Assembly: GCA_903921785.1 (NCBI GenBank)
Contig: CAIXRH010000014.1
Span: forward strand, 1 to 64,000
Direction of reading: 5' to 3'
Length of the DNA: 64,000 nt
DNA from: an uncultured Pseudomonadota bacterium
Lineage (GTDB): Bacteria; Myxococcota_A; UBA796; SXON01
This document shows, one piece after another, positions 48,384-60,385 of this stretch; positions within the stretch are counted from its first letter, which is position 1, and each line of letters starts with the position of its first letter. The notes below the pieces were generated by a model that did not search any database, was not told the DNA's origin, and saw only the letters and a program-made list of their open reading frames with translations. Position numbers and translations under genes: made by a program.

Positions 48384-49307
48384 TCAGCCGATGCCCAGCT
48401 CCGCCATCGCACGCGCGAGCTCAACCCGCACCAGCTTCTTCCGCCACGCGGGGGAGGCAAGGTGCGTCGTGAGCGGCTGCACCTCGGCCATGGCCGCTTC
48501 CACCAGCTCCGGCGGCGAGGTGGCCTCCAGCCGGAGCGGCGCTGGCCCCACCGCGGAGACGACACATCGCCATGTATCATGGATGTGTTGCACCGCGGTG
48601 AGCAGCTGCGGGTAGTCGATCGCGCCGCGGGCACGCAGCTTCCGGTAGGCGATGGGCGCGCCGGGCGGGGGCACCTCAAGGCGCACCAGCACCGAACCGC
48701 CAGGAACCTGCAACCACGTACGGCCATCCACCCCGTACAGCTCACGGATCGGGACGTGTCGTTCCCCGTGCGCCGTGGCGAACACCACCGATACATCGAG
48801 CAACATCATCACCGGAACAGTGTCCGCACTATGGGCTGCATAGCAGCCCTTCCCCTTCGGGGCGACGTGACACACCGGACCTTCGCACTTGAGACAGCCA
48901 CCCAACGCCACGCGCCAACCCGCCGGCTGGTTGTAGTATCGGCAGCGCGTGTCGAGCATGACGTTTCCGCCGATCGTGCCCATCGCCTGGATGGTCGGGG
49001 TCGCGACGGTCCGGGCGGCCTTCGCCAACGCCGGGTAGTCGCGCTGGACCACAGGCATCGCCGCCACCTCACGGAGCGTCACCGCCGCGCCGAGGGACAG
49101 CCCGCCCTCCGGCAGGGGCTCCACCTGGCGGAGCTCCGGCACCCGCATGGTCGAGACGAGGCGAGTGGGCGCGAACAGCCGATGTTTCATCGACGGCAGG
49201 AGGTCCGTACCTCCGGACACGAGGCGCGCGCCGGGCTCACCAGCGAGCCTGACCAGCTCCGCGAGGTCCGTGGGGTCGGCGAAATCGAATCGAGGGAGCG
49301 GAAGCAT
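48384..49307 (-). CDS. hcrB: 4-hydroxybenzoyl-CoA reductase, FAD/[4Fe-4S] subunit
   Basis: GGTDLLPSMKHRL, TIGGNVMLDTRCRYYNQ...GGCLKCEGPVCHVAPKGKGCYAAHSADTVP: the extra Cys loop characteristic of HcrB. Confidence 0.9.
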   Translation of the reverse strand: MLPLPRFDFADPTDLAELVRLAGEPGARLVSGGTDLLPSMKHRLFAPTRLVSTMRVPELRQVEPLPEGGLSLGAAVTLREVAAMPVVQRDYPALAKAARTVATPTIQAMGTIGGNVMLDTRCRYYNQPAGWRVALGGCLKCEGPVCHVAPKGKGCYAAHSADTVPVMMLLDVSVVFATAHGERHVPIRELYGVDGRTWLQVPGGSVLVRLEVPPPGAPIAYRKLRARGAIDYPQLLTAVQHIHDTWRCVVSAVGPAPLRLEATSPPELVEAAMAEVQPLTTHLASPAWRKKLVRVELARAMAELGIG

Positions 49308-51631
49308 CAGCGCCCTCCCGAACGACGGCGCCGGTCCAGCGCCCGAAGCACCTTCTCCGGCGTGAACGGCGGATCGTTGAGCCAGAGTCCCGTGGCGTCG
49401 TGAATCGCGTTTGCGATGGCCGGCACGGTGCTCAGCTGCGGCCCCTCCCCCGCCTCCTTGGCGCCGAGGGGCCCTTCCGGATCGTGGGACTCCACCGGAA
49501 AGACCACGATCTCCGGGCACTCGTGGATCGTCGGCACCTTGTACTCCAGGAGGCTCGGGGCCCGGATCAGCCCCTTGTCGTAGGCCTGTTCTTCGCTCAC
49601 CGCTTCGCCGACCCCCATGTAGACACACCCCTCGATCTGCCCCTCTACGATGGCGAGGTTGAGCACGCGGCCGCAGTCGTGCGCCACCCAGACCTTCTCC
49701 ACCCGGACCTCCCCGGTCTCCTCGTCCACGGCCACCTCGGCCACCTGCGCGGTGAACGAATAGGCCGGCGAGGGCCCCACCGACTGGCGTCGGAATCGGC
49801 TGCCGATCTTGGGCGGAGTGTAGCCTCCAGCGTGAATCAGGGGCCCGAAGCGCTCCTCTGCCAGCCACACCGCGTCCACCCAAGAGACATCGGATGTTTC
49901 CGTACCCACCCGCGGTCCGTCGCCGCGCTCGGGGTGGCCCGCGAGGCCGAAGCGCACCTCCTCCGGGGCGCAGCCGAGCTTGGCGGCCACGGCCTCCACG
50001 ATCTTGGCCCGCAACGGGCGCACGCCCGCGAGCGCGGCGTTGCCCGCCATGAAGGTGACCCGGCTGGAGTAGCTGCCGAGGTCCACCGGGGTGAGCGACG
50101 TGTCGCCCTCGATCACCCGGATGTCCTCCGGGTGCAGCCCCAGCTCCGCCGCCACGAGCCCGGCGAGCATGTGGTTGCTGCCCTGGCCGATGTCGGCAGT
50201 CCCGGCGCTCACGACCACCTCCCCGCTGCGGTCGATCTTCACTTGCACCGCGCTGTGGGGCATCTCGTTCTGATACACCGGGTGCAACGCCCCGCACATG
50301 TAGGCGCTCGCGGCGAGGCCCAGTCCCCGGCCAGGCCCCAGCGTTCCCCGCCGGGTTTCGTAGCCGCTCGCCTTCACCACGGCGTCGATACACTCGCGGA
50401 TGCCCACCGAGGTGACCCGGAGGCCGTTGCACGTCTCCGTGTTCGGCTCGATGCAGTTGCGTCGACGGAGCTCGGCGGGGTCTAGCCCCAGCCGTGCCGC
50501 CGCCTTGTCGAGGTGGGCCTCCAGCGCGAAGCGGGGCTGGATGGCCCCGTGGCCGCGTTTGGGTCCGCACGGGGGCTTGTTGGTGTAGAGCCGGTGCGAC
50601 TCGAACCGGTAGTTCTCCACCCGGTACGGCAGCGTCATGAAGACGCCGAGGTAGTAGCTGGTGACCACGCCGTAGCTGGCGTACGCGCCACCGTCCGCCC
50701 AGGCCTTGAAGTCGATCGCGGTGATGTCTCCGGCCGCCGAGAAGCCCATCTTGAGCCACAGCCGCGTGGGGTGGCGACCGCGGTGCGCGTAGAAGACCTC
50801 TTCGCGCTCCAGGACGATTCGGACCGGTCGTCCTAGCTTCCGCGCCAGGTACGCCGAACAGATGTCGGTGCAGAAGGGATCGCACTTTCCGCCGTAGCCG
50901 GCGCCGACGGCGGGCTTGATGAGCCGGACGTCCTGCTCGCGGAGCCCGAGCACCCGCGCCACATCCCGATGCACGTAGTGGGGGTTCTGCGTGCTACTCC
51001 AAAGGGTGAGCTTGCCGTCGGGCTCCACCTGGGCCAGGGCCGCGTGGCTCTCCAGCGCGGCGTGCGTCGATCCCGGGTATACGTATTCTTCCTCAATCAC
51101 CACCTCGGCGGCGGCGAAGCCGGCGTCGACGTTGCCGTACGCCTGGTGCACCCGCCGGAGCACGTTGCTCGGCTTGCGCGCGTAGTCATGGATGACGGGC
51201 TTGCTGGCGTCGAGCGCGTCCTCGATCGTGAGCACCGGCGGAAGCACCTCGTAGTCCACGCGCACGGCGGCACAGGCCCGATGTGCGGTCTCTTCGTCCA
51301 CCGCCGCGATACACACCACGGGCTCGCCGATGTATCGCACCTTCCCAAGTGCCAACGCCGTCTCATCCTGGGCGACCGGGATCACCCCGTATCGTTTGGG
51401 GAGCTCCTCGCCGATGCAGGCGCCGAAGACGCCGGGGAGGGCCAGCGCGGCGTCAAGGTGGATCGCCACGATGCGCGCGTGGGGGTGCGGCGAGCGGACG
51501 AACTTGGCGTGCGCCATCCGGGGGACCGTGAGGTCCGCTACGAACTGCGCCCGGCCGGCGATCCGCTCGCGACCGTCGATCTTCCGCGCGTAGGCGCCGA
51601 TGGGGCTCGGCACGGGCTCGGGCTGACGCAT
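49307..51631 (-). CDS. hcrA: 4-hydroxybenzoyl-CoA reductase, molybdopterin subunit
   Basis: GRAQFVADLTVPRMAHAKFVRSPHPHARI, GAGYGGKCDPFCTDICSAYLARKLGRPVRI, DIGQGSNHML, LGSYSSRVTFMAGNAA, GEGPQLSTVPAIANAI. Confidence 0.9.
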   Translation of the reverse strand: MRQPEPVPSPIGAYARKIDGRERIAGRAQFVADLTVPRMAHAKFVRSPHPHARIVAIHLDAALALPGVFGACIGEELPKRYGVIPVAQDETALALGKVRYIGEPVVCIAAVDEETAHRACAAVRVDYEVLPPVLTIEDALDASKPVIHDYARKPSNVLRRVHQAYGNVDAGFAAAEVVIEEEYVYPGSTHAALESHAALAQVEPDGKLTLWSSTQNPHYVHRDVARVLGLREQDVRLIKPAVGAGYGGKCDPFCTDICSAYLARKLGRPVRIVLEREEVFYAHRGRHPTRLWLKMGFSAAGDITAIDFKAWADGGAYASYGVVTSYYLGVFMTLPYRVENYRFESHRLYTNKPPCGPKRGHGAIQPRFALEAHLDKAAARLGLDPAELRRRNCIEPNTETCNGLRVTSVGIRECIDAVVKASGYETRRGTLGPGRGLGLAASAYMCGALHPVYQNEMPHSAVQVKIDRSGEVVVSAGTADIGQGSNHMLAGLVAAELGLHPEDIRVIEGDTSLTPVDLGSYSSRVTFMAGNAALAGVRPLRAKIVEAVAAKLGCAPEEVRFGLAGHPERGDGPRVGTETSDVSWVDAVWLAEERFGPLIHAGGYTPPKIGSRFRRQSVGPSPAYSFTAQVAEVAVDEETGEVRVEKVWVAHDCGRVLNLAIVEGQIEGCVYMGVGEAVSEEQAYDKGLIRAPSLLEYKVPTIHECPEIVVFPVESHDPEGPLGAKEAGEGPQLSTVPAIANAIHDATGLWLNDPPFTPEKVLRALDRRRRSGGR

Positions 51632-52113
51632 CAGGACTTCCCGGCGTAGATGGCCTGCGCTTCGCGGGCCGCGGTGAGGATCTTGGTGTAGCCGGTGCAC
51701 CGGCAGAGGTTGCTCCCCAGGGCCTCGCGAAGCTCCGCCTCGTTCGCCGTCGGGTTCTCGGCGAACAGGTGTCGGAGCGTCATCACAAAGCCCGGCGTGC
51801 AATAGCCACACTGCGCCGCCACGTGGTGATCGAAGGCCGCCTGGATCGGATCCGGGCCGGCGGGAGTGGCGACGCCCTCGATGGTCTCCACCCGCGCGCC
51901 CTCACAACCGACGGCGAGGGTGATGCACGAGAGCCGCGGGGCGCCGTCCACCAGGACGGTGCAGGCGCCGCAGTCGCCCACGTCGCAGCCATGTTTGGTG
52001 CCGGTGAGCCGAAGCGGCCCGCGGAGCACCTCGAGGAGCGTCTGGGCGGGCTCGACGAGCAAGCGGACGGGCTCGCCGTTGACGGTGAAGGAGAGGATGC
52101 GGTCGGTGGGCAT
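51631..52113 (-). CDS. hcrC: 4-hydroxybenzoyl-CoA reductase, [2Fe-2S] subunit
   Basis: GTKHGCDVGDCGACTVLVDG, HHVAAQCGYCTPGFVMTLRHLF, LGSNLCRCTGYTKILTA. Confidence 0.9.
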   Translation of the reverse strand: MPTDRILSFTVNGEPVRLLVEPAQTLLEVLRGPLRLTGTKHGCDVGDCGACTVLVDGAPRLSCITLAVGCEGARVETIEGVATPAGPDPIQAAFDHHVAAQCGYCTPGFVMTLRHLFAENPTANEAELREALGSNLCRCTGYTKILTAAREAQAIYAGKS

Positions 52114-52121
52114 GCGCCCGC

Positions 52122-52346
52122 TCAACCTAGCCGGCGCACCAACTTCGGCGAGGGCTCGAAGCAAGAACGCCGCGCGCCACAGGAGCCGGGCTCACAGACC
52201 CGGTCATCCGGGCCCCAGGGCTGGGCGGTGCGGTTGCACGTCCACGGCACGTCGTTGAGCGCGTAGAGGCTGGCCAGCTCGGCCTCCTCGACCACGTCGC
52301 GGCCGTAGAGCGACTTGGCCCGCATCCATCGACAGAGCTCGATCAT
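52122..52346 (-). CDS. Small Cys-containing protein (74 aa), unknown function
   Basis: MIELCRWMRAKSLYGRDVVEEAELASLYALNDVPWTCNRTAQPWGPDDRVCEPGSCGARRSCFEPSPKLVRRLG; ATGA overlap with upstream FAD subunit, 8 nt before hcrC. Confidence 0.65.
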   Translation of the reverse strand: MIELCRWMRAKSLYGRDVVEEAELASLYALNDVPWTCNRTAQPWGPDDRVCEPGSCGARRSCFEPSPKLVRRLG

Positions 52347-53335
52347 CGGCGGCCTCGGGGCGCGGGGGTGGCTGGCGCGGGTACCGCGGGCGGGGCGAAG
52401 GACGGGGCGGGGAGCGCGGCCGGGACCCCGCCGAGCCGCGCGACCACGATCTCCACGGCCCGGGCGAGCTGCGGGAACTTGGTGCGGGTGGAGGTCGATG
52501 CGTGCGGAGCCGAGGCGGCGAGCGTGGCGACCACCGGATCCAGCGGGGCCCCGGCGAGGAGCGCAGCTTCCAGCTCGGGGACGCGCGCGGGGACCGAGTG
52601 CATCCCGCCCACCGCGACCCGGGCGAACCCTGGCGCGAGATGGAGGATGACCTCGACCAGCGGCCATTCGGCGCGCCCGCGCGACGCGACCCTGAACCAC
52701 CCCGATACCGCGCCGGGGCGTGGCGGGGGGAGGATCGCGGCGACGAGCAGCTCCTCCTCGGTGACGGTGTGCTCGGCGCCCGCGGCCATGCCGTCGCCGT
52801 AGAGCGCAGCGACTTCGATCAGCCCGCGCGGCTCGATCTCCACCTTCGCGTCGAACGCGAGGAGGGCGAGGGCGAGGGTGCTCGGGTGGGGGGCGACGCA
52901 CGGGCCCGTGCTCAGCGGGGCGTGCCACGGGTGGTCCACCCCGGCAGCCGGACAGCCCGTGCCGCCGGCCTTGTAGCAGCGGAAGTCGGGGCTGCGGAAC
53001 CACGCGCAACGGGTGCGCTGGAGGAGGCTGCCCCCGAACGTCGCCACGTTGCGGATCTGGGGGTTCGCGAGGCCGCCCGCGGCGTCGGCGAGCGCGGGCC
53101 ACCCGGCCCGAACCCGCTCGTCCGCGGCGAGCTCCGCGAGTCGGACGGCAGACCCCACCCGGAGCCCGCCGCCCGGCGCGGGGCCGACGCCGTCGAGGCC
53201 GGGGACGTCACGGAGGTCCACGATCGGCGCGGCGATGCGCCCGTGGTGGAGACGGTCCATCACGTCGGTCCCGCCGGCGCGGCGTTCGCCCCAGATCGCC
53301 TGGGCGCGGAGGGTGGGGTGGCGAACGTCACTCAT
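52343..53335 (-). CDS. FAD-binding subunit of Pao/YagS-like Mo hydroxylase with extra Cys motif
   Basis: IRNVATFGGSLLQRTRCAWFRSPDFRCYKAGGTGCPAAGVDHPWHAPLSTGPCVAPHPSTLALALLAFDA resembles the [4Fe-4S] insertion of PaoB/YagS. Confidence 0.82.
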   Translation of the reverse strand: MSDVRHPTLRAQAIWGERRAGGTDVMDRLHHGRIAAPIVDLRDVPGLDGVGPAPGGGLRVGSAVRLAELAADERVRAGWPALADAAGGLANPQIRNVATFGGSLLQRTRCAWFRSPDFRCYKAGGTGCPAAGVDHPWHAPLSTGPCVAPHPSTLALALLAFDAKVEIEPRGLIEVAALYGDGMAAGAEHTVTEEELLVAAILPPPRPGAVSGWFRVASRGRAEWPLVEVILHLAPGFARVAVGGMHSVPARVPELEAALLAGAPLDPVVATLAASAPHASTSTRTKFPQLARAVEIVVARLGGVPAALPAPSFAPPAVPAPATPAPRGRR

Positions 53336-56109
53336 GCCGACACCCCCGCGAGCACCCGATCGGGCCGGAGTGGGAGCGCCCGTGGCGCCCATCCCGTCGC
53401 CGCGCGCACCGCGTTGGCGATGCTCGCCGCGACCGGCACCGCGACGAGCTCGGAGAGCCCGATACCGCCGCCGAGCACGTCTTCGTACCCCGCTTCGTCG
53501 AACTCCACGGCCATCTCCGGCGCGTCCGCGATGCCGGGCACGCGGTAGTCTTCAAGGTTTGCGGAGACCAACCCGCCGGTGACCGGGTCGACGAGGCGCG
53601 CTTCATAGAGCGCCGCCCCGACCCCCTGGATCACCCCGCCTTCCACCTGGGAGCGCGCGAGCCGAGGAACGGCGATGTGGCCCACGCCCACCCCCGTCCA
53701 CGTGCGGAGGACCCGCACGCGGCCGAGCCAGGTGTCGACCTCCACCTCGGCGACCTGCACGGCCACCCCGAGGTGGTTGCCGATCGAGAGGTTCGCGATG
53801 GCGAAGGGGAGGAAGTAGGGCGCGTGGTCGTGGCGACGATGGCCGATCCGGCTCATGCGCGGCGCCACCTTGAGGACGTCGGCCCACGGGGCGAGCCCGC
53901 CCGCGTGGGCCACGCCGCCCGGCGCCGCCTTCGCCTGCTGCAACCCGAGCGCCCGCCCGGCCCGCGACGCGAGGTCCGCGGCGAGCTGCGTGAGCGCGTC
54001 CTCCACGGCCGGGACGATCGAGGCGGTGGTGCGGCTCCCTGCGGACATGGGGCCGGTGGGAAAGCTCGACTCCCCGAGCTCCACCCGGAACAACGAGCGG
54101 TCCGCGCCGAGGACCCGGGCGGCGGTCTCGGCGATCACCGTGCGGGTGCCGTTGCCCATGTCCTGCGCGGCGGTGCGCAGCACGATGAGCCCGTCGGCCA
54201 CCTCCGCCTGCACCTCGGTGTTGCCCTGGAGGAAGTACATCCAGGCGCCGTTGGCGAGCCCCACGCCGCGGCGGAACCGGCCGGTCTGGCCGGACTGGGG
54301 CCGATCCTTCCAGAGCGGGAGGGCCTCCACGCGGTCATAGAGCCGGTTGCGCACCGGGTTGGGGTCCCAGCCGCGCCGCAGGGCGAGTGTATCCTTGCCG
54401 AGCTTCGTGGCGAGCTCGTCCATGGCGCCTTCGAGGGCGAAGAGCGCGGGGAACCCGCCGGGGCCCCGCATGGGGCGGGTGGGCGGGGTGTTCGAGGCGA
54501 TGTCCCACTCCTGGAGCCGCTTCTCGGCGAACGGGTAGAGCAGCCGGAAGAGGATGCCCATGCTGTTGCCGATGCAGGCGCCGCCGTGGCCGTACGCCTC
54601 GAGATCGAGCCCCGCCGGCGACCCGTCGGCCTTCGCGCCGACGCGGAGGTTCGCCTCCTGCCCCGCGCGGATCGCCACCGTGAGCTCGCCCGGCCGGTCG
54701 AGCACCAGTCGCACCGCCCGCCCGGTGACCTTCGCGATCTCCACGCAGGCCTTGATCTGGATGTCGAAGCTCGCCTTGGCGCCGAAGCCGCCGCCGACGT
54801 GCTCGGTGTGCACGCGCACCCGGTCCCGGGTGAGGCCGAAGACCTCGGCGAGGTCGTCCGCCATCGCGGTGACGGCCTGGGTGCTCAACCAAACGTCCAG
54901 GCCGTTGTCTTGCCACATCGCGAGCGCGGCATGAGGCTCCAGCGCGGTGTGGCAGAGCGGCTCGGTGGTCCACGTGTCCTCGACGAGCACGACCGACGCG
55001 TCCGCGAGCGCCCTGGGGACGGCGCCGGGGCGGCCGCCGATGGAGAGGTCGGTCGGACCTCGGGCGTTGCCGGACCACTTCGCGGGCGTCGTGGGCAGCT
55101 CCGCGCCGAGCGGCATCGTGGCGTGCGGCTCGAACACCACGGGGGCGCCGGGCGCCCGCGCCGCGGCGAGCGTGATGGCGGCGGGCAGGACCTCCCACTC
55201 CGCGACGATCGCGGCCAGGCCCGCCCGGGCCGCCTCCCGCGACTCCGCCGCGAGGACCGCGATCTCGTGGCCGACGAACCGCGCCCGCGCGCCGACCTCG
55301 GCCAGCGCGACGGCGCCGCGGACGCCGGGCACCTTCAGGGCCGGCGCCAGGTCGAGCCGACGCAAGATGGCGCTGGCGTGGGGGCTTCGGAACAGCACGC
55401 CTTCGAGCTGGCCTTCCAGACGAACATCCACCGTGTAGCGGGCGCGGCCGGTGACCTTCTCCACCGCCTCGACCCGCGGGGGCGCCACCGCGGAGTCCTC
55501 GTCGTACTGGCCGGCGCAGGCTGCTTGCACCGCGGCGTAGATCGCGCCATACGCCCCGCACCGGCACAGGTGCCCGGCGAGCGCCCCCGCGACCTCGTCC
55601 CGCGACGGTGCGACCCGGCCCTTCTCCGCCCGCCACCGGGCGAAGAACGCCACCGCCTCGGTGACAAAGCCCGGGGTGCAGTAGCCGCACTGGAGCGCGT
55701 CCTCTGCGGCGAACGCCCGCTGCATCGGGTGGAGCTTCGCGCCGTCGGCGAAGGTCTCCACCGTCTCGAGGTGGCGGCCGCCGAGGTGGCTCGCGGGGTG
55801 CAGGCAGCTCGCGACGCTCGCACCATCCACCAGGACCGTGCAGGCCCCGCACGCGCCGTGGCCACAGCCGTGCTTCGTCCCGGTGAGGCCGAGGCGCTCC
55901 CGCACCAACTCCAGCGTGGTCTCGGTCGGTCCGGGCGTGACCCTGACCGCCTTGCCATTGACCCAGAGGTCCAGCGAAGCGGGTGGATCGCCGGCGGGCG
56001 CCGCGGCAGCGGCACCCGCGGCAGCGGAGGCGGCTTCGGGGACGAGGGCCACCGCCGCAGTAGCGCCGAGCACACTACGGAGGAAGCCACGACGAGTCGC
56101 GTGGGGCAT
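53332..56109 (-). CDS. Tat-exported fused [2Fe-2S]/molybdopterin subunit of a xanthine/aldehyde oxidase-family enzyme
   Basis: MPHATRRGFLRSVLGATAAVALVPEAASA Tat signal; GTKHGCGHGACGACTVLVDG, CGYCTPGFV, HLCRCGAY; then VTGRARYTVDV, HVGGGFGAKASFDIQIKACVEIAKVTGRAVRLVLDR Mo subunit. Confidence 0.88.
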   Translation of the reverse strand: MPHATRRGFLRSVLGATAAVALVPEAASAAAGAAAAAPAGDPPASLDLWVNGKAVRVTPGPTETTLELVRERLGLTGTKHGCGHGACGACTVLVDGASVASCLHPASHLGGRHLETVETFADGAKLHPMQRAFAAEDALQCGYCTPGFVTEAVAFFARWRAEKGRVAPSRDEVAGALAGHLCRCGAYGAIYAAVQAACAGQYDEDSAVAPPRVEAVEKVTGRARYTVDVRLEGQLEGVLFRSPHASAILRRLDLAPALKVPGVRGAVALAEVGARARFVGHEIAVLAAESREAARAGLAAIVAEWEVLPAAITLAAARAPGAPVVFEPHATMPLGAELPTTPAKWSGNARGPTDLSIGGRPGAVPRALADASVVLVEDTWTTEPLCHTALEPHAALAMWQDNGLDVWLSTQAVTAMADDLAEVFGLTRDRVRVHTEHVGGGFGAKASFDIQIKACVEIAKVTGRAVRLVLDRPGELTVAIRAGQEANLRVGAKADGSPAGLDLEAYGHGGACIGNSMGILFRLLYPFAEKRLQEWDIASNTPPTRPMRGPGGFPALFALEGAMDELATKLGKDTLALRRGWDPNPVRNRLYDRVEALPLWKDRPQSGQTGRFRRGVGLANGAWMYFLQGNTEVQAEVADGLIVLRTAAQDMGNGTRTVIAETAARVLGADRSLFRVELGESSFPTGPMSAGSRTTASIVPAVEDALTQLAADLASRAGRALGLQQAKAAPGGVAHAGGLAPWADVLKVAPRMSRIGHRRHDHAPYFLPFAIANLSIGNHLGVAVQVAEVEVDTWLGRVRVLRTWTGVGVGHIAVPRLARSQVEGGVIQGVGAALYEARLVDPVTGGLVSANLEDYRVPGIADAPEMAVEFDEAGYEDVLGGGIGLSELVAVPVAASIANAVRAATGWAPRALPLRPDRVLAGVSA

Positions 56110-56127: not shown

Positions 56128-56418
56128 TTACGCGCGCAGCCGCCCTCGCGCCTCCCCCGCACCGATCCGCACCCCGTCGAGCCACACCTCGTCCGCCGCG
56201 CCGTCCGCCAGCTCCACCGGGACGCCGCTTCGGACACACCACAAAAGCAGGCGACCCAGCTCGCCGTCGGCGCCCGTGCGCACCAGGCGCAAGCGGGCAC
56301 CGGGCGCGGAGACCACCGGCGTCTCCACCCGGACGCGACGCGCCGCCACCGCGATCATCCGGGGGTCGTCCCGGGGACCGAGGCCGGCGGCGCGTTCGAG
56401 GCGGGCGCGGAGGCTCAC
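56128..56418 (-). CDS. Hypothetical protein (96 aa) coupled to boxB
   Basis: GTG start overlaps the boxB stop (GTGA): VSLRARLERAAGLGPRDDPRMIAVAARRVRVETP...; in-operon position. Confidence 0.55.
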   Translation of the reverse strand: MSLRARLERAAGLGPRDDPRMIAVAARRVRVETPVVSAPGARLRLVRTGADGELGRLLLWCVRSGVPVELADGAADEVWLDGVRIGAGEARGRLRA

Positions 56419-57839
56419 GCCTGCGGCGGCTTCACGTACTCGAAGTCCATGGAATTGCCGTGGATGCCCTTCTTGGGCGCCGCGATCCAGTTCGCCATCT
56501 TCCCGGGCTCCTGCACGCGGTGCATGAGGCTCGTGACGTAGGCGCGGTCTTCGGCCGAGGGCAGCCAGTTGCCGATGTTGCGGTCGTATTCGTCCTGGGC
56601 GAGCAGCTGACCGTCCGGGCCGAACGGGAGGTTGGCGTAGATGCCCTGCCGACGGAAGAAGCGGCTGTCCGGGAGCGTGATGCGCTCCGAGGAACCTTCC
56701 TCCTCCAACGCCTGGTTCCAGCGCTTGACGACCCGCTCGGCGTCCTTGATGTAGGACTGGCGGAGCATCTCGTTCATGGCGTTGCGCAGCGGCACCTCCT
56801 TGGAGGTGAGCTTGCCGTTCTCCACGGTGGCGAGGCGGTGCCACTGGTTGAGCGCCGTGTGCTCGTCGTAGTCCTTGGCCTCGGCCCAGCGGCCCTTGAG
56901 GCCCGCAGCGAAGAAGTCCGCCGCGTTGGTGCTGATCTCGGAGCCGAACAGGTCGATGCTGTAGCAGAACCAGTAGTTGATCCACTTCTGGGTCATCGCC
57001 ACCGGCACGCCACCCTGGGCCCGCGCGTCGCCGTTGCGGTCCAGCTTCGCGAGCTGGGCGCCGCGGCGGAGGATGCGCTCGACGCCGGTCTCGCCGACGA
57101 AGAGGTGATGGGCCTCCTCGGTGAGCATGAAGCGGCAGGTGCGGGAGAGCGGGTCGAAGCCGGACTCGGCGAGGGCGCCGAGCTGGTACTTCCCATCGCG
57201 GTCGGTGAAGCAGGTGAAGCAGAAGAAGGTGAGCCAGTCCGGACAGGGCTGGTTGAACGCGTCGAGGATGCGGGGCTTGTCGGCGTCGCCGGCGCGGCGG
57301 GCGAGCAGGTCATCCGCCTCGTCGCGGCCGTCCTTGCCGAAGTAGGCGTGGAGCAGGTACACCATCGCCCAGAGGTGACGGCCCTCCTCGACGTTGACCT
57401 GGAACAGGTTGCGCATGTCGTAGAGCGAGGGGGCGGTCATGCCCAGCCAGCGCTGCTGCTCGACGCTCGCGGGCTCGGTGTCGGCCTGGGTGACGATGAT
57501 GCGGCGGAGCACGTTGCGGTACTCGCCCGGCACTTCCTGCCAGACGGGCTCGCCGGCGTGGTCGCCGCAGGGGATGCGCCGATCGGCGACCTTGTCATCG
57601 AGGAAGATGCCCCAGCGGTACTCGGGCATCTTGACGTAGCCGAACTGCGCCCAGCCGCCCGGCTCGGTGCTCACCGCGGTGCGGAGGTACACGTCGTGGA
57701 GCTGGAAGCTCTCCGGGCCCATCTGGTTCCACCAGTCCAGGTAGGCGGGCTGCCACTTCTCGAGGGCGCGCTGCAGGCGCTTGTCCGAGTCGAGGTTGAC
57801 GTTGTTCGGGATGAGGCTCTGGTAGTCGATGTCGGCCAT
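56415..57839 (-). CDS. boxB: Benzoyl-CoA 2,3-epoxidase, oxygenase component BoxB
   Basis: DIDYQSLIPNNVNLDSDKRLQRALEKWQPAYLDWWNQMGPESFQ, MRNLFQVNVEEGRHLWAMVYLLHAYFG, EEAHHLFVGETGVERIL: diiron EExxH-type ligands. Confidence 0.95.
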   Translation of the reverse strand: MADIDYQSLIPNNVNLDSDKRLQRALEKWQPAYLDWWNQMGPESFQLHDVYLRTAVSTEPGGWAQFGYVKMPEYRWGIFLDDKVADRRIPCGDHAGEPVWQEVPGEYRNVLRRIIVTQADTEPASVEQQRWLGMTAPSLYDMRNLFQVNVEEGRHLWAMVYLLHAYFGKDGRDEADDLLARRAGDADKPRILDAFNQPCPDWLTFFCFTCFTDRDGKYQLGALAESGFDPLSRTCRFMLTEEAHHLFVGETGVERILRRGAQLAKLDRNGDARAQGGVPVAMTQKWINYWFCYSIDLFGSEISTNAADFFAAGLKGRWAEAKDYDEHTALNQWHRLATVENGKLTSKEVPLRNAMNEMLRQSYIKDAERVVKRWNQALEEEGSSERITLPDSRFFRRQGIYANLPFGPDGQLLAQDEYDRNIGNWLPSAEDRAYVTSLMHRVQEPGKMANWIAAPKKGIHGNSMDFEYVKPPQA

Positions 57840-57864: not shown

Positions 57865-59493
57865 TCAGGTACGCTTGTAGTCGAAGACGGGGCGCTCGGG
57901 CGCACCGAACATCTTGAGCGCACCGCGCTCGCCGACGGCGTTGGGGCGCTGGAAGATCCAGTTCTGCCAGGCGGTGAGCCGGCCGTAGATCTTGTTGTCC
58001 ATCGTCTCGGGGCCGCCGAACCGGAGGTTCTGCTCCATGCCGGTGAGCGCGTCGGGGGAGAGGCTCGCGCGCTCCTCGATGGCGATGCGGACCTCGTCTT
58101 CGTAGTCGATCTCGTCGGGCGTCATGGTGACGAGCTCGAGCTCCTCGGCGCCCTCCGCGTCGATCGTCGCGCCGACGGCGAGCACCTTGGCCGGCTGGCC
58201 GGGCGCGCCGGGGAAGCGGGACTGAAGGCGGGTGAGGCCGGAGTGCATCGGAAAGAGCCCACCGGAGACCTTCGAGACGAAGACCTTGTTGATCCCGTCG
58301 TCGTCCGCCAGCATGTAGGAGCGGTCGGCCGCGAGCACGATCTCGAACAGCGAGCCGGAAAAGGCGTTGCCCGGCTCGACGAGGGCGAAGATCGTCTTGG
58401 CCATGTTGTCGAGGCGGCGGAGGACACGCGCTTGGAAGAGCTGCACCTCGCGGCCGAACCAGCCCTGGGTCTCCAGCGCGGCGTCGGCTTCGAGGACCTT
58501 GTGGCGATCCCCCTCGGCCTTGACCACGAGCAGCCCGATGTCGAGGTGGTTCACGCGGAGGCGGAGCAGCGCGTCGTCGAGCTCGCGCCAGGCGCGCAGC
58601 GCCCACGTGGAGCTGTCGGCGCAAGGCGCGGTGTCCGGCGCCTTGATGGTGAGGTGCGCGACACGCGCTTCGTTGTCCACCTTCACGGTGACGTAGCGGT
58701 ATTCGAGGTGGTTCCCCGCGACCTCGCTCGGGGCGAGCGGCTCGAGCACCACCGAGAAGGCCCCTTCCGGCATCGGGTTGGCGCCGGCCACGGCCTGGGC
58801 GCGCGCATCCAGGCTCGCCTGCCACTTGCTGCGGGCGAAAGAAGCATCGACGAAGCGGTACTTCACGGCGTCGCGCGCCTTGAAGCCCTCGGCCTTGGTG
58901 CAGAACACATCCGCCATGTCGCGGCGGACCTTCCGCTTGTCGGTGAGGCGGGTGAGGCCGCCGGTGCCAGGGAGCACGCCGAGCAGCGGCACCTCGGGGA
59001 GGGAGACGGCGGAGTTCCCGTCGTCGATCAGGTAGATCTCCTTGCAGCACATCGCGAGCTCGTACCCGCCGCCGGACGCGGTGCCGTTGAGCGCGGCCAC
59101 GTACACCGCGCCGCCGCTGTCGGTGGCCTCCTCGATGCCGCAGCGCGTTTCATTGGTGAACTTGCAGAAGTTCACCTTGAACGCGTGGCTCGACTGGGCG
59201 AGCATGCGGATGTTCGCGCCGGCGCAGAACACCTTGTCGTACCCGCCGGTGACGACCACGCAGCGGACCTGCGGGTGCTCAAAGCGGAGGCGCTGGACGG
59301 CGTCGGCCAGCTCCACGTCCACCCCGAGGTCGTAGCTGTTGAGCTTGAGCTCGTACTTCCCGGGCCACATCCCGCCATCTTCCTGCACGCGCATGGTGAG
59401 CGTGGCGATGGCCCCCTGCACATCCAGCTTCCAATGCCGGTAACGATCGGGGTGGGTCTCGAAGTTCACAGCGGGGTACGCGATCTCGGCCAT
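57865..59493 (-). CDS. boxC: 2,3-epoxybenzoyl-CoA dihydrolase (benzoyl-CoA-dihydrodiol lyase) BoxC
   Basis: NFETHPDRYRHWKLDVQGAIATLTMRVQEDGGMWPGKYELKLNSYDLGVDVELADAVQRLRFEHPQVRCVVVTGGYDKVFCAGANIRML; crotonase fold. Confidence 0.95.
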   Translation of the reverse strand: MAEIAYPAVNFETHPDRYRHWKLDVQGAIATLTMRVQEDGGMWPGKYELKLNSYDLGVDVELADAVQRLRFEHPQVRCVVVTGGYDKVFCAGANIRMLAQSSHAFKVNFCKFTNETRCGIEEATDSGGAVYVAALNGTASGGGYELAMCCKEIYLIDDGNSAVSLPEVPLLGVLPGTGGLTRLTDKRKVRRDMADVFCTKAEGFKARDAVKYRFVDASFARSKWQASLDARAQAVAGANPMPEGAFSVVLEPLAPSEVAGNHLEYRYVTVKVDNEARVAHLTIKAPDTAPCADSSTWALRAWRELDDALLRLRVNHLDIGLLVVKAEGDRHKVLEADAALETQGWFGREVQLFQARVLRRLDNMAKTIFALVEPGNAFSGSLFEIVLAADRSYMLADDDGINKVFVSKVSGGLFPMHSGLTRLQSRFPGAPGQPAKVLAVGATIDAEGAEELELVTMTPDEIDYEDEVRIAIEERASLSPDALTGMEQNLRFGGPETMDNKIYGRLTAWQNWIFQRPNAVGERGALKMFGAPERPVFDYKRT

Positions 59494-59512
59494 GGGGTCC
59501 GTCCGGAGCGTT

Positions 59513-59526
59513 GGCACTATACTGCA
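59513..59526. promoter_or_regulatory. Imperfect operator-like box (GGCACTATACTGCA)
   Basis: 12 of 14 positions match the perfect palindrome TGCAGTATACTGCA 43 bp away; in the boxC/boxR divergent promoter region. Confidence 0.65.
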
Positions 59527-59554
59527 CGTGCTCGGGGTAGACAAGCACACAAAC

Positions 59555-59570
59555 ATGCAGTATACTGCAT
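59555..59570. promoter_or_regulatory. Perfect 16-bp palindromic operator ATGCAGTATACTGCAT
   Basis: Self-complementary; fits the TGCA-N6-TGCA pattern reported for BzdR/BoxR-type regulators. Confidence 0.8.
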
Positions 59571-59584
59571 CCGTGAGCATTCCC

Positions 59585-60385
59585 ATGCCCGAGCTGCTCC
59601 CTCGTGTCGGCGCACGCGTACGCCAGCTCCGCGAGTCCCGGGAGCTCACCCAAGCCGAGCTCGCCCGGCGATCGGGGGTGAGCCTACGTTTTCTGGCCGA
59701 CGTGGAGGGCGGCACCGGCAACGCCAGCCTGCTGCGCCTCGCCGAGCTGGCGCTGGTCCTGGGGGTGAGCCTCGCGGAGCTGGTGGTCGACGCCGGCCCG
59801 GTGGTCGACGACCTCACCCGCTTCGGCCGCCTCGCCCCGGCGGAGCGGCGCCTCCGCCTCGGCGGCACCCGCGTGGCCATCGGCCTCGTCGGCCTTCGCG
59901 GCGCCGGCAAGTCCTCCGCCGGAGCCGGCCTCGCCGCGCGCCTCGGCGTGCCCTTCGTAGAGGTCGACGCCGCGATCGAAGCGCGTGCGGGGATGCCGTT
60001 GGCGGAGCTGTTCACCGACCACGGCGTCGCGCGCTACCGCGAGCTGGAGCGAGAAGTCCTCGACGCGACGCTCGCCACCGGACGGCCGGTTGTATTCGCC
60101 GCGGGCGGCTCCCTGGTCACCGACACCGCGGCCTGGGCCGACGTGCGGCGGCGCGCGCGCACCACCTGGCTGCGCGCCCGGCCGGAGACCCACCTGCGCC
60201 GCGTCGAATCCCAGGGCGATCATCGGCCCATGCGCGGGCGGCGCGACGCCCTGTCCGAGCTGCGGGGGCTGCTCAGCGCCCGCGAGCCGCTCTACGCGCT
60301 CGCTGACCTCACGCTGGACACCGACCGGCTCGACCTGTTGGAGACGATCTGGGCGCTGGAGGCGTGGGCGAACGAGCCGGCCTGA
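59585..60385 (+). CDS. boxR: BoxR/BzdR-type regulator: XRE-family HTH fused to shikimate-kinase-like domain
   Basis: VRQLRESRELTQAELARRSGVSLRFLADVEGGTGNASLLRLAELALVL HTH; IGLVGLRGAGKSSAGAGLAARLGVPFVEVDAAIEARAGMPLAELFTDHGVARYRELEREVL kinase-like. The upstream ATG at 59555 lies inside the operator. Confidence 0.93.
   Translation: MPELLPRVGARVRQLRESRELTQAELARRSGVSLRFLADVEGGTGNASLLRLAELALVLGVSLAELVVDAGPVVDDLTRFGRLAPAERRLRLGGTRVAIGLVGLRGAGKSSAGAGLAARLGVPFVEVDAAIEARAGMPLAELFTDHGVARYRELEREVLDATLATGRPVVFAAGGSLVTDTAAWADVRRRARTTWLRARPETHLRRVESQGDHRPMRGRRDALSELRGLLSAREPLYALADLTLDTDRLDLLETIWALEAWANEPA

Follow-up and report, generated by a model that had tools for sequence, protein, structure and literature searches.

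Gene organization of the boxC-boxR locus

The window, i.e., the whole stretch of 64,000 nucleotides analyzed, contains boxR on the plus strand and, divergent from it, boxC followed by boxB on the minus strand (Table 1). Family assignments were made by profile, and the gene names hold against the curated cut-offs. BoxR has an N-terminal XRE-type helix-turn-helix domain (HTH; PF01381) and a C-terminal shikimate-kinase-like domain (SKI; PF01202), and contains a RFLADVEGG-GN region and the Walker-A sequence GLRGAGKS, both common to betaproteobacterial BoxR proteins. With its match to NF006015, the combination of HTH and SKI domains with a Walker A, and boxC and boxB as neighbors, this protein has the features of BoxR/BzdR regulators. 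The canonical box divergon (boxR-boxCBA versus boxD-bclA) was not found, as boxR and boxC are divergently oriented and a boxA over the cut-off is lacking. No boxA gene (TIGR03224) reached the curated cut-off in the window's own genome or in the 84 genomes searched; boxC and boxR were present in many of these 84 genomes without a recognizable boxA.

Two molybdenum-hydroxylase gene sets are located downstream of boxB. They resemble 4-hydroxybenzoyl-CoA reductase subunits, with scores below the equivalog cut-offs (alpha, 813 bits with a cut-off of 994.55; beta, 220.5 bits with a cut-off of 404.55), and their products could supply the box pathway with benzoyl-CoA. The open frame of about 106 aa between boxB and these genes had no NCBIfam match.

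Table 1. Genes, candidate operators and putative promoter elements at the boxC-boxR locus (positions in the window)
Feature	Position	Strand	Description
Molybdenum-hydroxylase gene sets (two)	48387-56109	-	downstream of boxB
Open frame	56128-56448	-	about 106 aa
boxB	56415-57839	-	benzoyl-CoA 2,3-epoxidase oxygenase subunit, next after boxC; TIGR03225, 719 bits (cut-off 499.1)
boxC	57865-59493	-	2,3-epoxybenzoyl-CoA dihydrolase, divergent from boxR; TIGR03222, 725 bits (cut-off 712.3)
Operator O1 (boxC-proximal)	59513-59526		GGCACTATACTGCA; 1 mismatch to TGCASTATASTGCA
Putative boxC promoter	59516-59544	-	TTGTCT-17-TATAGT; 9/12 consensus positions
-10 of boxC promoter	59521-59516	-	inside O1
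-35 of boxC promoter	59539-59544	-	
-35 of boxR promoter	59538-59543	+	
Putative boxR promoter	59538-59566	+	TAGACA-17-TATACT; 10/12 consensus positions; -35/-10 columns conserved in relatives
Operator O2 (boxR-proximal)	59555-59570		perfect 16-bp palindrome ATGCAGTATACTGCAT
-10 of boxR promoter	59561-59566	+	inside O2
boxR	59573-60385	+	XRE-type HTH and shikimate-kinase-like domain; most likely start GTG 59573; NF006015, 241.9 bits (cut-off 204)

Two candidate operators in the intergenic region

Minus-strand boxC and plus-strand boxR are separated by a gap of 91 bp, measured from the boxC start to ATG 59585, and both O1 and O2 are located within it. The sequence TGCAGTATACTGCA was found exactly at 59556-59569, inside the 16-bp palindrome of O2, and O1 had 2 mismatches to a motif of this type. 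A sequence-only reading of this DNA had placed two TGCA-N6-TGCA operators here at a distance of 43 bp, and a motif search of the window recovered both at these positions and this distance. When up to 3 mismatches were allowed, O1 and O2 were the only matches in the 64 kb, with no third site in the gap. Dinucleotide shuffles of the 64 kb gave a mean of 0.25 matches, and two matches, counted anywhere in the 64 kb and not required within one 91-bp gap, were obtained in 4 of 100 shuffles. Perfect palindromy was dropped as evidence, with 11 perfect 14-bp palindromes being present in the G+C-rich window. Since such palindromes are common here, the argument is based on the type of motif, its place and its conservation.

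Suvorova and Gelfand (2019, PMC6449761) give ATGCACTATAGTGCAT as the betaproteobacterial BoxR/BzdR motif; it is almost always present in more than one copy, and the copies are separated mainly by 3-5 turns. The boxR-proximal site is identical to it in 14 of 16 bases and the boxC-proximal site in 12 of 16. The candidate operators resemble those of BoxR/BzdR in having the TGCA-N6-TGCA palindrome and in occurring as multiple sites in phase, 43 bp apart in the window and 42-43 or 31-33 bp apart in relatives. The earlier assignment of the sites to the BoxR/BzdR type is thus upheld by near-identity to the published motif, by phylogenetic footprinting (see below) and by the NF006015 assignment of the regulator.

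Conservation across BoxR loci

Of the 92 genomes searched, the window's own genome included, 47 had a BoxR orthologue scoring over the cut-off. Scanning one locus per genome with an automatic criterion detected a box pair in 42 of these 47 loci, a count that overstates the number of independent events because relatives are non-independent samples. The boxes were 43 bp apart in 21 loci, 42 bp in 5, 31-33 bp in 15 and 29 bp in 1, and the spacing is therefore clustered at four and three helical turns. The four-turn spacing noticed in the window is thus conserved among the BoxR loci of relatives. A pair whose mismatch sum did not exceed 4 was present at 32 real loci versus none of 9400 Markov-shuffled copies of the same regions; some pairs spaced 31-33 bp contain weak boxes, with mismatch sums up to 8, which were reached by 0.4% of the shuffles. 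Matches with 3 or fewer mismatches numbered 85 within the 13.1 kb that the boxC-boxR regions cover versus 9 in 208 kb outside, and 4 of these 9 represent one 42-bp-spaced pair in each of loci L065 and L066.

The five loci without a pair in the automatic scan were L047, L052, L071, L065 and L066. In L065 and L066, boxC is about 1.9 kb from boxR; the pair stays before boxC, which it adjoins outside the scanned stretch, and a further box is found near boxR. Inspection of the translation showed that the open frame between boxC and boxR in L066 reads as a boxB homologue. In L062, L069, L070, L072 and L073, boxR is about 450-550 bp from boxC and the operator pair stays at boxC, with no strong second pair seen near boxR. 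The planctomycete BoxR-like loci L006-L008 had neither a box nor a boxC within the fetched stretch. Taken by type, place and conservation, the candidate operators are not a product of chance.

A record titled Klebsiella pneumoniae (CAMBIK010000053.1; L005 / G001:C53) contains a boxC-boxR locus whose boxes are those of L051, a relative of the window in the same genus. The two loci are on contigs of equal length. This record is most likely a mislabelled metagenome bin.

Distribution of the motif in the genome

The genome scan proposed in the sequence-only reading was carried out with exact GCABTATAVTGC, and the only two sites found in the 7.5-Mb genome were O1 and O2, so that exact sites are confined to the boxC/boxR divergon. 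The stricter GCASTATASTGC was found at 14 sites in 21 genomes (own, genus, family and order), all 14 at boxC/boxR loci, with 0 for the reversed-pattern control; the exact motif therefore does not occur at random frequency genome-wide, the outcome named in the sequence-only reading as a refutation. Allowing one mismatch to GCABTATAVTGC added 5 sites in the genome, making a total of 7 versus 12 for the reversed control. A wider regulon was rejected, as one-mismatch matches elsewhere are no commoner than those of the control. One of them, C63:39668, is upstream of a lipoprotein-like open frame that has no obvious connection to benzoate. The best candidate for bclA (benzoate-CoA ligase), on contig C292, had no box nearby, the best match having 4 mismatches. 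As defined by the exact motif, the predicted regulon is the boxC/boxR divergon alone.

Putative divergent promoters

The TATA core of each candidate operator is the -10 hexamer of one of two putative divergent promoters, and the two -35 hexamers are face to face with five bases in common (Table 1). An independent consensus scan returned exactly these two putative promoters, with 0.1 expected. In the 43-bp class, the conserved columns were the two boxes and a central TTKNCAA, the CAA of which (columns 29-31) was C in 16/21, A in 21/21 and A in 17/21. On the minus strand, TTG opens a hexamer 17 bp from TATAVT of the boxC-proximal box; TTKNCA has the same 17-bp distance to TATAVT of the boxR-proximal box on the plus strand. 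The sequence-only reading had overlooked the -10 boxes in the operator cores and the common -35 boxes, as well as the restriction of the regulon to the divergon.

No common -35 match was seen in loci with 32-bp spacing, though phase was kept, indicating that this geometry is not universal. Because the 32-bp class keeps phase without the -35 match, we infer that helical phase may be important both to the repressor and to the promoters.

Start codon of boxR

The sequence-only reading had noted that ATG 59555 falls inside the operator and had proposed GTG 59573 or ATG 59585 instead. Transcription usually starts about 6-8 nt past the -10 hexamer. ATG 59555 is upstream of the transcript expected from this distance and was rejected as the start, its ATG being merely part of the ATGCA arm; on this point the earlier proposal is supported. 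In 27 of 37 loci the first in-frame start was 5-10 nt after the boxR-proximal TATAVT, with a mode of 6 nt, and over all loci 30 start codons at offsets 5-10 were in frame versus 2 in the other two frames together. With the start codon about 6 nt past the -10 in most relatives, the start in the window is most likely GTG 59573. ATG 59585 is formally possible as well, and less favored by the start-to--10 distance of the relatives. Since the start codon falls on the expected +1, the boxR mRNA is probably leaderless or nearly so.

Alternative explanations for the sites

The two boxes might be nothing other than strong divergent -10 elements, reading TATAVT both ways, to which BoxR does not bind. 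In favor of this, the core would serve well as a -10 in either direction, and the -35 boxes show conservation too. Even without BoxR, selection for a -10 would preserve the TATA core, and part of the conservation may therefore reflect the promoter and not the operator. The GC and TGC arms are not so explained: in the boxC-proximal box, T10, G11 and C12 lie beyond the hexamer that is used and were invariant in 21/21 sequences, and so were the arm bases G, C and G, C in the boxR-proximal box, all at positions where a promoter needs nothing. In addition, BoxR/BzdR proteins bind palindromes of this type elsewhere, and the exact motif was found nowhere else in the 21 genomes. We therefore regard promoters alone as a very unlikely explanation. 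Use of the sites by another palindrome-binding regulator, not the adjacent BoxR, has to be considered because BoxR binding here is argued from relatives and TGCA half-sites are also present in the operators of proteins not related to it, such as XylS, BenR and CopG (PMC6678401). Against it, the sites track boxC/boxR even where the two are far apart, and they match the BoxR motif of Betaproteobacteria; involvement of such a regulator appears most improbable.

A terminator-like scan flagged 59570-59555 on the minus strand, which raises the question of whether the 16-bp palindrome functions in RNA, as a terminator or attenuator hairpin, instead of as DNA. The stem would have 6 pairs only, 3 of them G-C, and the T run in the tail GTTTGTGTGC is weak. 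Furthermore, both transcripts are predicted to start downstream of the palindrome and would therefore lack it. On these grounds the hairpin was rejected, its probability being close to nil. A different question is whether BoxR binds the boxes and responds not, or not only, to benzoyl-CoA, the inducer being, for example, hydroxybenzoyl-CoA or another aryl-CoA. The hydroxybenzoyl-CoA-reductase-like molybdenum-hydroxylase genes downstream would fit such an inducer, and other aryl-CoA regulators have other inducers, as with MbdR and 3-methylbenzoyl-CoA (PMC4424350). However, the regulator belongs to the BoxR/BzdR subfamily and is located at boxC/boxB, whose substrates derive from benzoyl-CoA, making a different inducer unlikely.

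Proposed mechanism

Benzoyl-CoA releases BzdR from DNA (PMC6678401), and the SK-like domain of BzdR binds benzoyl-CoA (PMC3602430). Given the near-identical palindrome, this precedent, and the conserved HTH and Walker A, the simplest reading is autogenous repression relieved by benzoyl-CoA. With high confidence we propose that two face-to-face promoters are controlled by BoxR operators at their -10 boxes, with benzoyl-CoA relieving repression and boxR being leaderless. The two divergent promoters would be of the sigma-70 type with overlapping -35 hexamers. By analogy to relatives, one BoxR dimer would bind each operator when benzoate is absent. Four turns apart, the two dimers would share one face of the DNA and probably touch each other, which would make binding cooperative. 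BoxR would thereby keep RNA polymerase off both -10 boxes, leaving boxR self-limited and boxCB off. Binding of benzoyl-CoA to the shikimate-kinase-like domain would cause BoxR to release the DNA, opening both promoters, and boxR would be translated from a leaderless or nearly leaderless mRNA beginning at GTG 59573.

We also lean, by a little, toward considering the locus a compact switch in which the repressor sites are the -10 boxes, the -35 boxes are common, the pair shifts in whole turns (43 to 32 bp), and a conserved leaderless mRNA locks start codon, transcription start and operator together.

Comparison with known systems and significance

The locus is similar to the betaproteobacterial BoxR/BzdR regulons (PMC6449761) in the regulator subfamily and in having multiple sites several turns apart. 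In those regulons, boxR is with the boxCBA operon and divergent from boxD/bclA, whereas in the window boxR is divergent from boxC, boxA was not detected, the best bclA candidate is elsewhere and boxless, and the motif marks the divergon only. In the boxR loci of Ramlibacter/Polaromonas (L009-L025), paired boxes of types TGCARTAAACTGCTT and GGAAGTATACTGCAA are found upstream of boxR at 30 bp; boxR and boxC are co-oriented there, and the boxes are less symmetrical and closer than those of the window.

At PN of Azoarcus sp. CIB, OR2 and OR3 of BzdR are TGCA-N6-TGCA, with OR1 overlapping both the -10 and the +1. This single promoter carries three operator regions and four dimers and has an FNR-type activator (PMC6678401). 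The boxC-boxR locus is like PN in its TGCA-N6-TGCA operators, in the overlap of operator and -10, and, by analogy, in a benzoyl-CoA-responsive repressor. The locus is different from PN in that the two operators would serve two divergent promoters. The differences from known cases are thus gene order, operator number, the common -35 and a likely leaderless boxR; the last two may already have been described somewhere. A literature search on boxB with benzoyl-CoA in Myxococcota found nothing.

The analysis corrected the boxR start, predicted that the regulator mRNA is leaderless and that the regulon consists of one divergon, and gave the exact bases to mutate. The 42 loci form a large natural set for comparing operator spacing, promoter elements and start codons. 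The finding is mainly a well-supported extension of the known BoxR control circuit to a new lineage, in which the gene order is independent. It also brings out a lineage possessing boxB and boxC without a recognizable boxA.
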